Below are positions 5,532 through 34,635 of a DNA stretch of 64,000 bases, one piece after another. The stretch covers positions 52,597 to 116,596 of the forward strand of contig PBYU01000021.1 of assembly GCA_002730035.1 (NCBI GenBank). The letters run 5' to 3'. The notes beneath the pieces are model-generated. The model had not been told where the DNA came from. It searched no databases and saw nothing but the letters and a program-made list of their open reading frames with translations. Position 1 is the stretch's first letter. Each line of letters begins with the position of its first letter. This stretch comes from Gammaproteobacteria bacterium. Its GTDB lineage: Bacteria > Pseudomonadota > Gammaproteobacteria > Pseudomonadales > Pseudohongiellaceae. Position numbers and translations under genes: made by a program.

Positions 5532-6011
5532 ATGACTATCCAGGTAGGGGACAAGGTTCCCTCGATAAATTTCAAAGTGATGACTGAGGAAGGCCCCAAA
5601 GATCATAGTAGTGATGAGGTCTTTGCTGGAAAGAAAGTCGTATTCTTCGCCGTGCCCGGAGCCTTCACACCCGGTTGTTCCATGACCCATTTGCCAGGAT
5701 TTGTCGTCAATGCTGATGCCATCAAGGCCAAGGGTGTGGATACGATAGCCTGTATGGCTGTAAATGACGCCTTTGTCATGGGCGCCTGGGGTAAGGTTCA
5801 GAATGCGGAAGAGATCCTTATGTTGGCAGATGGTAATGGTGAATTTACCAGTGCGATCGGATTGCAACTGGATGCCAGTGGATTTGGTATGGGATCCCGG
5901 GCGCAACGGTTTGGCATGATTGTCGACGGTGGCACGGTCACCTATCTTGGTATTGAAGCACCTGGCGAGATAAAGGTCAGTTCGGCCGAAGCCATGCTGG
6001 AGACTTTGTAA
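5532..6011 (+). CDS. Prx5-type peroxiredoxin
   Basis: This 159-residue cytoplasmic thiol peroxidase carries the Prx5 signature GAFTPGCSMTHLPGFV with the peroxidatic Cys49. It has the usual length and the GTRAQRF-like active-site arginine region (GSRAQRFGMI). Members reduce hydrogen peroxide or alkyl hydroperoxides with glutathione/glutaredoxin or thioredoxin. A clear AAGGAG ribosome site precedes the ATG. A second, exported peroxiredoxin with selenocysteine lies at 32983, so the genome carries at least two distinct peroxiredoxin types. Confidence 0.93.
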   Translation: MTIQVGDKVPSINFKVMTEEGPKDHSSDEVFAGKKVVFFAVPGAFTPGCSMTHLPGFVVNADAIKAKGVDTIACMAVNDAFVMGAWGKVQNAEEILMLADGNGEFTSAIGLQLDASGFGMGSRAQRFGMIVDGGTVTYLGIEAPGEIKVSSAEAMLETL

Positions 6012-31781: not shown

Positions 31782-32843
31782 ATGCCGACACTGTTAAAAC
31801 CTTTCGATTCGAGATACTTGGGGCTAAGCCTGGCTGTTTGTCTGTGCGTGTTTTCGACAAATCTGGTGCTTGCTCAGCAACCCTCAACATCGAGTGACGA
31901 GCAGGTAGCGGAAGCGACAGGCGTAGCAAATGAAGCCAGGGCACTGGAGATCGGCCGCGAACTGGCAGCCCGCGCAAGTGCCATTGAAAACATGCAAAGT
32001 GAGTTGGGTGTCTATGATGCCGCACTGATCGAAGCCTATGCCGATTTCGCCAACTTCTACCGGCAGCTGGAAGACTATGCCAGTGCCATTAGTCTCTATA
32101 GCGAAGCGTTGCAGATTGCCCGCATCAATACTGGTCTCTACGGCGAACAGCAATTCCCCATCATCGAAGCCTTGATCGAAAACAATGGCAAACTGGAGGA
32201 ATGGAGTGCAGTAGACGATTTGCAACAACTCAACTACCACATCTCCAGCCGGGTGTATGAATTACCCGATTCTCAGTACCTGACAGCGGTCGATGATTTT
32301 GGCGGTTGGAAGCTGCGAGTAATCCGCGAGAACCTGCTGGACCAGTCGGGCCGGGGATTGCTCAACACAGCCGAAGATCTTAGCGACTTTTATGAACGGC
32401 TTATCGAATCTGCAGAACTGCACAGCGATATCAAACCGGAGAGCCTGCTGACGATGATTTATGGCAAGTCACAGGCAGACTTGACCCTGGCCAGGTCCGC
32501 TGCCGCCACTCCCTATACCGCTTTCGAGGGAACTGCCAGTCGCTTCGTGAATCAGACTCGCTGCCAGAACGTGACTAATTCACGAGGCCAGGTAGTGCGC
32601 CAGTGTTATACCGTGCAGGTTGAAAATCCCCGCTATCGGCAATCCCAGCGCGATGCCAAGCGGATGTTTCTAACTCGTTATACCCGACAAATCACCAGCT
32701 CCATTGCGAGACTGCGGCTCATCAAGGATACCAGTAGCGAGCTGAGTAATGGCGAACACCAGCAGCTGGAGAGTCAAATCGCCGAGCTACAGACCGAATC
32801 GGAGCAACTATTGCGAGCCGCCAACCGTATGACCCTGTTCTGA
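31782..32843 (+). CDS. exported TPR-like protein, function unknown
   Basis: The 353-residue protein has a signal peptide (to about residue 31, NLVLAQQ) and one or two tetratricopeptide-like helical pairs: LIEAYADFANFYRQLEDYASAISLYSEALQIARINTG. The second half contains a Cys-pair segment (NQTRCQNVTN...VVRQCYTVQVENPRY) and a long C-terminal coiled-coil-like helix. No enzymatic motif is visible. It precedes the selenoprotein peroxiredoxin gene by 140 bases on the same strand. Confidence 0.75.
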   Translation: MPTLLKPFDSRYLGLSLAVCLCVFSTNLVLAQQPSTSSDEQVAEATGVANEARALEIGRELAARASAIENMQSELGVYDAALIEAYADFANFYRQLEDYASAISLYSEALQIARINTGLYGEQQFPIIEALIENNGKLEEWSAVDDLQQLNYHISSRVYELPDSQYLTAVDDFGGWKLRVIRENLLDQSGRGLLNTAEDLSDFYERLIESAELHSDIKPESLLTMIYGKSQADLTLARSAAATPYTAFEGTASRFVNQTRCQNVTNSRGQVVRQCYTVQVENPRYRQSQRDAKRMFLTRYTRQITSSIARLRLIKDTSSELSNGEHQQLESQIAELQTESEQLLRAANRMTLF

Positions 32844-32982
32844 GGATTCCCAATCATCCTGGCGTTGGAAAAACGCTCTCTCGACCTGTTTTTACTGGAA
32901 TTTTCCAACCACACAGGGTACAAGAGGGATGGTCGGTGGTCTGCCTGCGGGTCGCCGGTCTCTAATAATAAAGGAGAAGATT

Positions 32983-33525
32983 ATGTCTCAATTTGCCAAG
33001 CTGCTAAGTCGAGTCCTGCTGTCGGCTGTAATCGCCACGCTTGCTCTCGCTAGCCAATTTGCTGCAGCACTGGAAGAGGGTGATAAAGCGCCCGATTTCT
33101 TGCTGCAGGCATCAGATGGCAAGACCTATTCCCTGTCCCAATTTCTGGGCGTGCGACCCATGGTCATTGCCTTCTTTCCCAAAGCCTTTACCGGTGGCTG
33201 AACTATGCAATGTAAAGCGCTGCGTGACAGTGCCAGAGAAATTCAGAGTTTCGACGTTGCATACTTCATGACCAGTGTAGATACACTGGAAGACAATACG
33301 GCTTTTGCTAACGAGCATGAAGCCGGGTTTCCAATCCTGTCAGATCCTTCCAAGGAGATGACCGGTGCCTATGAAGTACTATCAGATGCAGGGTTCGCAA
33401 ATCGCTGGACCTATTACATCGATAAGCAAGGTACGATCCTGAAGATCGACAAGCAAACCAATCCGGCAACGGCGGGACGGGATTTAACCCGAACCATGGG
33501 AGAATTGGGTTTTCCCAAAAGCTAG
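32983..33525 (+). CDS. exported peroxiredoxin, selenocysteine-containing (TGA decoded at 33199-33201)
   Basis: The 180-residue protein begins at ATG 32983 with AAGGAG upstream. Residues 1-28 are a signal peptide, so the enzyme should work in the periplasm. The AhpC/TSA domain begins EGDKAPDFLLQASDGKTYSL and continues MVIAFFPKAFTGG-U-TMQCKALRDSA, with in-frame TGA at codon 73, exactly the peroxidatic cysteine position of PrxQ/AhpC-type proteins. The same frame then runs 107 more residues with conserved Prx segments (VDTLEDNTAFANEHEAGFPILSDP, RWTYYIDKQGTILKID). Cys77 (U-x3-C) is a candidate resolving or helper thiol. A SECIS-like hairpin follows the TGA. If no Sec machinery exists, it is a pseudogene; selA-D are not in this window. 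Confidence 0.82.
33217..33233 (+). promoter_or_regulatory. bacterial SECIS-like hairpin
   Basis: GCGCTG (33217-33222), loop CGTGA (33223-33227) and CAGTGC (33228-33233) form a 6-bp stem with one G-U pair. The loop has the GU that SelB recognises, 22-23 bases after the TGA, inside the range known for bacterial SECIS elements. The hairpin is within the coding frame, as in other bacterial selenoprotein genes. Confidence 0.7.
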
Positions 33526-33550
33526 AAACGCGTTTATTCGTTTTTCTCTA

Positions 33551-33584
33551 AAAAACCCGATCACTGAACGGTGATCGGGTTTTT
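33551..33584 (+). terminator. intrinsic terminator after the selenoprotein gene
   Basis: AAAAACCCGATCAC (33551-33564) pairs perfectly with GTGATCGGGTTTTT (33571-33584) around a 6-base loop, followed by more T residues. It lies 26 bases past the TAG of the selenoprotein gene, which confirms that the transcriptional unit extends to that stop rather than ending at the TGA. Confidence 0.92.
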
Positions 33585-33747
33585 TTGTGTTTTTCCACTC
33601 AACTATTAGCTAATGCTGCCAGGCTCCTTGGAATTGTGTTCGAAATATGACAATAGCTGACCCTAAAGTGACGAGCCGGGCTGCCTTGTTGTAGCGGTTC
33701 AGGCGCTGTGACAGAATACTTCACCTCAGCAGGGGTTGGAGCGAACT

Positions 33748-34635
33748 ATGTCTAAGGCCGGGCTTACCATAATTGCCCTCGTGGCGGTATTAACGTTACT
33801 GTCATTGGTGTATTTTGCCATCACCTTCGAAGCTCCAACAGGCACCACCACTGTAGTGATTCAGCCTCCCGCGCTGCAACCGGCTGAACCGGAAGCTGTA
33901 GAGGCAATAACGCCTACGCTTCCTCAGATTCGCATCCAGCCGCAACCGGAACCGGTTACTATCGCCAGTGCCGAGCCAGTTATCGAAGAGCCTCCGGAGG
34001 AAGTGCCCATTCCTGAAGCCGTGGTAGAGGAACCGGTAGATGCGGATGTTATTCAGCTGCCCAGGCTGAATAACAGTGATGATTTCGTCTTCGAAGGATT
34101 GCGCGCCATACAAAATGGTGCAGCGCTGTTGCAACTGCTGGCGGACGACCAGATCGTACGCAAGTTCGTGGTGTTTGTAGAAAACATCAGCCGCGGGGAG
34201 TTCCCACAAACCGGGCTACCCTATAAAGGCGTTCAGCAGGAAATGCCAACGCGTAATATCGATGACAATTTATTTGTGATGGACGACAGCGCTCATGCCC
34301 GCTTCGACCAGGTCGTAGATACTTTTGTCTCCATCGATAGCGACGCGGCTATGGCCTTCTATCGCACGCTGTCACCGCTGTTTCAGCAAGCCTATGCTGA
34401 AATCGGTTTTCGTAACGTGAGTTTCGATGCTACGCTGCGCAGTGCCATCACTACAGTGCTGCGCACCACAGACGTGGAAGGGCCTTATCAGCTAGTGAAA
34501 CCATCAGTTATGCTTCTGTATGCCGATGCCAGCATCGAGAACCTGCAGGAAGTACACAAGCAACTGATTCGAATCGGGCCGGAAAATACAGCAAAGCTGA
34601 AAGACAAGCTGCAGCAGTTTCTACTACAACTTTAG
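33748..34635 (+). CDS. DUF3014 membrane-anchored protein
   Basis: The 295-residue protein has an N-terminal transmembrane helix (about residues 5-25), a long Pro/Glu-rich linker (about 30-100) and a helical DUF3014 domain: DDFVFEGLRAIQNGAALLQLLADDQIVRKFVVFVENISRG, then VDTFVSIDSDAAMAFYRTLSPLFQQAYAEIGF and the C-terminal QKQLIRIGPENTAKLKDKL-like segment. The family function is unknown. ATG 33748 is preferred; an upstream TTG at 33736 is also open. It precedes the sulfurtransferase gene by 15 bases. Confidence 0.85.
   Translation: MSKAGLTIIALVAVLTLLSLVYFAITFEAPTGTTTVVIQPPALQPAEPEAVEAITPTLPQIRIQPQPEPVTIASAEPVIEEPPEEVPIPEAVVEEPVDADVIQLPRLNNSDDFVFEGLRAIQNGAALLQLLADDQIVRKFVVFVENISRGEFPQTGLPYKGVQQEMPTRNIDDNLFVMDDSAHARFDQVVDTFVSIDSDAAMAFYRTLSPLFQQAYAEIGFRNVSFDATLRSAITTVLRTTDVEGPYQLVKPSVMLLYADASIENLQEVHKQLIRIGPENTAKLKDKLQQFLLQL

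Follow-up and report, generated by a model that had tools for sequence, protein, structure and literature searches.

Within the 64,000-nucleotide stretch of Pseudohongiellaceae DNA analysed here (the window), a gene of the AhpC/TSA family is interrupted by a single TGA in frame with its ATG, with 72 residues encoded before the TGA and 107 between it and a TAG stop codon (Table 1). When the TGA was read as Cys, the resulting 180-aa protein matched PF00578 (AhpC-TSA) with 103.4 bits against a cut-off of 26. This single match extends over residues 33-153 and thus spans both halves, in agreement with the claim of a first-pass annotation that the frame stays open past the TGA and continues the domain up to a normal TAG. 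The same annotation placed a strong terminator 26 bases after the TAG; an intrinsic terminator does follow the gene, but the program counted 24 bases between the TAG and the beginning of its stem. The residues surrounding position 73 read P66-K-A-F-T70-G-G-U73-T-M-Q-C77, in which the PxxxTxxU motif, as quoted in a passage of PMC13188914, appears as P66-KAF-T70-GG-U73. The TGA was said to occupy the site of the peroxidatic cysteine, for which an alignment of Cys-containing homologues had been suggested as a check. At this column we found Cys in all the Cys homologues aligned, namely 14 distinct sequences from the family, six from the order and more distant ones. Another AhpC/TSA-family gene of the window, at about 5544-5894, has an ordinary Cys (AFTPGCSMTH).

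Table 1. Positions of the features described at the peroxiredoxin locus and of three further TGA-bearing genes of the source genome.
Feature	Sequence	Position	Strand	Remarks
Putative Sec-peroxiredoxin gene	Window	32983..33525	+	180 residues, Sec proposed at position 73, stop TAG (33523-33525)
Predicted signal peptide	Window	32983..33069	+	Residues 1-29, cleavage after A-A-A; from hydropathy, site by eye
Proposed Sec codon TGA	Window	33199..33201	+	TxxU motif (T70-G-G-U73), peroxidatic position
Codon of Cys77 (TGT)	Window	33211..33213	+	U+4, proposed resolving cysteine
Putative bacterial SECIS hairpin	Window	33217..33233	+	GCGCTG-CGTGA-CAGTGC, 6-bp stem, loop CGTGA
Intrinsic terminator	Window	33550..33585	+	16 pairs, T tail
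AhpC/TSA gene (L141)	G000:C45	36903-37367	-	In-frame TGA at UPYC, signal-like N-terminus by eye, DsbD_N (PF11412, 28.1 bits)
AhpC/TSA gene (L142)	G000:C15	79785-80180	+	In-frame TGA at UPFC, signal-like N-terminus by eye
Prx-like frame (L145)	G000:C7	36174-36533	-	TGA at HWUPYC

Were the TGA a real stop, the locus would hold a pseudogene or a 72-aa fragment, perhaps followed by a separate protein starting at the ATG at 33205, and a mechanical list of open reading frames does give two of them here (32929-33201 and 33205-33525). We surveyed 137 genomes of Pseudohongiellaceae with a match cut-off of E 1e-30 or better. In 74 of them, the orthologue contains a single in-frame TGA; 73 of the 74 belong to the genus of the source genome and one to genus g48. 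The codon was read directly in 70 of the 74, including G066 and G176, which were read through the loci L030 and L028 that match them by contig place; for the other four (G170, G177, G178 and G179), the data consist of one TGA inside the match. The interrupting codon was always TGA, occurred once per match and was never TAA or TAG. Among the TGA rows that were read and not cut by a contig end, the length past the TGA was 107 codons, with the exception of one row of 109 (L108). We also compared the sequences with that of the window by codon position; the differences at positions 1, 2 and 3 amounted to 0.131, 0.120 and 0.493 before the TGA (78 sequences) and to 0.156, 0.130 and 0.487 after it (79 sequences), the sequences of either set not all being distinct. 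The equal third-position bias indicates that the frame is under the same constraint before and after the TGA. Given this bias, the retained length, the invariable TGA and the domain match spanning both halves, a true stop at this position is very improbable. The homologues with Cys at the column might also suggest that a TGC or TGT was miscalled as TGA during sequencing or assembly. This explanation, to which we assign a practically negligible probability, is refuted by the recurrence of the in-frame TGA in these 74 family genomes, which represent different species. Identical stretches were counted once in the synonymous test, the Cys comparison and the tree presented below, as opposed to the fold and codon-position counts.

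We then searched the source genome for selA, selB, selC and selD, as had been advised. All four exceeded their curated cut-offs: SelA with 559.4 bits, SelB with 423.8 bits, SelD with 284.6 bits and tRNA-Sec (selC) with 65.7 bits against a gathering cut-off of 47, its anticodon being TCA by reading. The SelD match (locus L016, G000:C11:45838-46758, minus strand) lies inside a 774-aa open frame, long enough for an Ndh-SelD fusion, for which it is an unconfirmed candidate; such fusions have been reported from GOS data (passage of PMC2398784). Across the family, selA was detected in 69 of the 74 genomes carrying the TGA form versus 24 of the 63 others (P = 3e-12, Fisher test, a value that overstates the association since the genomes are related). 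A tRNA-Sec above cut-off was found in 51 of the 63 TGA genomes searched and was missed in the remaining 12; the search for selA came up empty in five of the 74, and one TGA genome that is 85% complete (G019) yielded neither. In three relatives the tRNA-Sec match lies at most about 130 bases from a contig end (G037:C56:5-95, G049:C87:3-94 and G030:C23:37-128), which makes assembly gaps a likely cause of the missing tRNA-Sec genes. These positions also raise the possibility that selC adjoins repeats or integrated elements.

A hairpin with a 6-bp stem and a five-base loop lies 16-32 bases past the TGA, exactly as announced, and its predicted fold energy is -7.9 kcal/mol. According to the legend of Fig. 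2 of PMC13188914, the model of a bacterial SECIS element (bSECIS) calls for a loop of 3-9 nt, a stem of 4-16 bp, a G among the first two bases of the loop, 16-37 nt between the UGA and the loop, and a minimum free energy (MFE) of at most -7.5. The hairpin described here has a 5-nt loop (CGUGA), 6 bp in its stem, a G within the first two bases of this loop, a distance of 21 nt and an MFE of -7.9. We rejected the hairpin as a proof by itself, since the window contains 2210 TGA trinucleotides, counting both strands, of which 507 (23%) precede a stem of at least 6 bp whose loop has a G as its first or second base, and 965 precede a 42-base stretch that folds at -7.9 kcal/mol or below. A narrower motif, combining a stem of at least 5 bp with a CGTGN loop starting 20-27 bases from the first base of the TGA, occurs once in the window, at this very place. 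A scan of the window against Rfam at gathering thresholds returned no match.

Comparison between the two forms of the gene was more telling than shape. From 73 TGA rows of sufficient length, 61 of them distinct, we retained 56 sequences after dropping one of another length and four containing N, and measured synonymous diversity codon by codon. Codons +6 to +10 (GCG CTG CGT GAC AGT) gave 0, 0, 0, 0 and 0.04, against a mean of 0.50 over the stretch, and the lowest of the 152 windows of seven codons are those over the hairpin. In the 14 Cys sequences, the same codons gave 0.78, 0.60, 0.49, 0.44 and 0.14. Nearly fixed single codons also occur outside the hairpin in the TGA sequences (+3, -6 and +12), and the two forms differ in the residues at +7 (Leu in the TGA form, Ile in the Cys form) and +11 (Ala and Ser, respectively). 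The last 16 bases of the hairpin are identical in 76 TGA rows, not all distinct, except in one row, where a T-to-C change converts the G-U pair into a G-C pair. If the TGA were decoded as Trp, Cys or another residue with no selenium involved, be it through a suppressor tRNA or a variant code, the open frame would look no different. However, selA-selD are present, several orthologues of the same genus (L029 and L079-L086) use TGA as their own terminal stop, and, of the two forms, only that with TGA has a constrained hairpin, all of which leaves this explanation with hardly any probability.

A search of the source genome with PF00578 revealed four frames containing one TGA, namely the window gene and three others on contigs C45, C15 and C7. 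The C45 and C15 genes carry 6-bp stems with CGTGG or CGTGC loops downstream of the TGA, the stem being 17 bases from the first base of the TGA compared to 18 in the window gene; when folded in isolation, the C15 stretch favours a different structure. To assess covariation, we aligned five rows, three of the window gene and two of these sister genes, cut at the stem, a choice that favours the structure. All 30 cells (30/30) pair, with changes on both sides at five of the six pairs, and pairing falls to 10-50% in slid controls. A covariance model of 23 positions built from these rows recovered the three genes represented in it, with E values of 2e-4 to 6e-3, and the next five matches had E values of at least 0.95, none of the five having a TGA between long open frames; the search scored 150 of 400 first-look candidates and provides no count of the selenoproteome. 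The identification of the hairpin as a SECIS element is thus borne out by the constraint and by the sister genes and not by its shape, and binding of SelB is predicted from the constraint and the covariation. The C45 and C15 genes likely encode a second and a third selenoprotein, respectively. For the C7 gene, downstream of whose TGA no CGTGN loop was found, a fourth selenoprotein with a different SECIS element is possible. The C45 product resembles a Prx-like U/CxxC protein fused to Pfam11412 that is known from GOS data (passage of PMC9402790).

We conclude, with a probability of roughly 95%, that the TGA is a selenocysteine codon in a probably exported peroxiredoxin in which Sec would be the peroxidatic residue. 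The mechanism that we propose begins with SelB carrying Sec-tRNA(Sec), which would bind the hairpin past the UGA and allow Sec to be inserted at residue 73, after which the ribosome would read on to the TAG. The precursor would be exported, probably via the Sec translocon, and its signal peptide cut after Ala29, leaving a mature part of 151 aa and about 16.7 kDa. Once in the periplasm, U73, located near the start of helix 2, would attack H2O2 or an organic hydroperoxide through its selenolate. Cys77, which lies one helical turn away, would most likely resolve the resulting selenenic acid by forming a Se-S bond, to be opened in turn by a periplasmic thiol reductant.

Export to the periplasm is probable on the basis of hydropathy and the A-A-A cleavage site; a cleavable signal peptide is characterised by a basic n-region, a hydrophobic h-region and an AxA site. 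Of 83 TGA rows, some of them identical, 77 passed a 12-residue hydropathy cut; the six misses are explained by an anchor motif that our script overlooked (five rows) and by truncation at a contig end (one row). The cut was also passed by all 17 Cys rows of the family and by 5 of 6 from the order, compared to 0 of 4 more distant homologues.

An AlphaFold2 model computed from 21 rows has a mean pLDDT of 90, with 93-98 by ten-residue blocks past residue 30. Residue 73, modelled as Cys, is predicted near the start of a helix formed by residues 71-82, and Cys77 lies in the same predicted helix. The best PDB match by both sequence and fold is Bcp1 of Sulfolobus (3drn), and AhpE of Mycobacterium tuberculosis, in which the AFTG motif aligns, is among the best matches, suggesting a peroxidase whose peroxidatic site is occupied by Sec. 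Both proteins differ from the one proposed here. As for PrxQ/Bcp, a thioredoxin-dependent thiol peroxidase, NF006960 is the best NCBIfam match, but its 71.7 bits fall far below the cut-off of 140, and the window protein has its second Cys at +4 and is predicted to be exported. The resolving Cys of PrxQ is at +5 in helix 2, and a +5 Cys was indeed seen in the PrxQ-like rows L035, L037, L040, L041, L112 and L113. AhpE is a cytoplasmic protein, designated 1-Cys in PDB titles, with Cys instead of Sec. The model of PrxU of Eubacterium acidaminophilum (NF040737), itself a Sec peroxiredoxin although from a strict anaerobe, also matches the window protein, yet with 38.1 bits, far under its cut-off of 270.

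The comparison with AhpE bears on the role that we propose for Cys77. Compatible with Sec at the TGA, the selenoprotein may instead be a thiol-disulphide oxidoreductase, or be of the 1-Cys type and depend on an external thiol, with Cys77 not acting as the resolving residue. The high rank of the 1-Cys protein AhpE among both sequence and structure matches points in this direction, as do the position of Cys77 at +4 and not at +5, and the predicted helix shared with U73, which would have to unwind for the two residues to meet. On the other hand, 1-Cys peroxiredoxins of the AhpE type lack a second conserved Cys close to the active site, whereas every distinct sequence of the family that was compared retains Cys77 (56 of 56 for the TGA form, 14 of 14 for the Cys form), as do the six homologues from the order, and the PxxxTxxU motif is peroxidase-type. 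We thus regard a 1-Cys or oxidoreductase function as unlikely, at somewhat less than one chance in three, and retain Cys77 as the proposed resolving residue of a peroxiredoxin.

Judged by its sequence, the gene belongs to the known TxxU Sec-peroxiredoxins of marine metagenomes. Passages of the respective papers report 43 such genes (PF00578, TxxU) in the Sargasso Sea set (PMC1088965) and 253 Sec-Prx genes with TxxU in the GOS set (PMC2398784). A 2006 survey of sequenced genomes counted 12 Prx selenoproteins and five Cys to Sec events (passage of PMC1794560), and a 2026 review lists Sec Prx, citing E. acidaminophilum (its ref. 83; passage of PMC13188914). The window gene shares with the metagenomic proteins the Pfam domain, TxxU, a peroxidatic Sec, a bSECIS past the UGA and widespread Cys homologues; unlike what we propose here, the passages concerned place no member in Pseudohongiellaceae and call none exported. 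The spellings 'signal peptide' and 'gammaproteobacteria' are absent from PMC1088965 and PMC2398784, as is 'periplasm' from PMC2398784. The first-pass annotation had called an exported member in a gammaproteobacterium notable, a judgement that is fair, but the Prx selenoprotein family itself is well known from marine metagenomes. Among the open-licence papers searched, we found none on a Sec-Prx in Pseudohongiellaceae, on its export or on Sec/Cys exchange at one locus, none joining selenocysteine with OM182 or selenoproteins with Pseudohongiella, and none on selenoproteins in Pseudomonadales metagenome-assembled genomes.

The genus to which the source belongs would provide one named host lineage for marine peroxiredoxin selenoproteins. 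Gene callers that treat TGA as a stop would split the enzyme of the window in two. More tentatively, and at clearly less than even odds, we propose that Pseudohongiellaceae (including OM182 BACL3), assumed to be aerobic, keep the Sec machinery largely for exported redox selenoproteins. The peroxiredoxin, with a new spacing of selenolate and thiol (U and Cys at +4 within one helix), and the Prx-like proteins with UxxC, including a fusion to DsbD_N, might constitute a periplasmic selenium-based peroxide/disulphide relay with a shared CGUGN SECIS loop. Some of the Prx selenoproteins in the Sargasso Sea and GOS sets might then come from this lineage.

In the family survey, 15 of the 137 genomes, from genera g49 and g50, have an orthologue without TGA, and the 14 that were fetched all carry TGT or TGC at the codon. 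No orthologue was found at E 1e-30 or better in the other 48, 11 of them from the genus of the source, and at this cut-off the Cys form was not found in any genome of that genus. A scan of named genomes yielded 25 loci, comprising 14 with TGA (L019-L032), three with TGT or TGC (L033, L034 and L042) and eight distant ones with Cys; some of the loci in the first two groups come from the same genomes as the family survey and are not extra species. Among these, OM182 BACL3 (L026) carries the TGA form and is placed in the genus of the source, Pseudohongiella sp. O18 (L034) carries the Cys form and belongs to genus g50, and L023 and L034 are named Pseudohongiellaceae in the tree listing. Cys homologues with 48-52% identity are also present in 6 of 44 genomes from other families of Pseudomonadales.

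The upstream neighbour of the gene (31782-32843, TPR-like but below the Pfam cut-off) is present at 11 of the 13 TGA loci compared, and the downstream neighbour (33736-34635, DUF3014) at 12, the remaining locus ending before reaching it. At the Cys loci L033, L034 and L042, the corresponding neighbours show 27-36% identity upstream and 41-43% downstream. These shared neighbours indicate that the Sec and Cys forms occupy one locus. In a gene tree of 84 rows, the TGA label requires two changes, and a single TGA clade is not rejected (p-AU 0.313). The TGA form probably derives from the Cys form, a direction made likelier by the Cys forms found in two further genera of Pseudohongiellaceae and six further families of Pseudomonadales. 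Since one genus has Sec at this site where others of its family have Cys, the locus offers a clean natural comparison, through which the benefit of selenium to a probable periplasmic peroxidase in seawater could be addressed directly.

Loss of the decoding machinery does not simply account for the Cys form, since selA is present in 11 of the 15 genomes whose orthologue lacks the TGA. Two genomes with the Cys form, Pseudohongiella sp. O18 (L034) and UBA2675 (L042), even keep a high-scoring tRNA-Sec (83.2 bits) and presumably use Sec elsewhere. Finally, one genome (G002) holds two different TGA copies (G002:C60:1483-2019 and G002:C72:4-387), 72% and 79% identical to that of the window; one of them is cut at a contig end, and the pair reflects either a duplication or a mixed bin.
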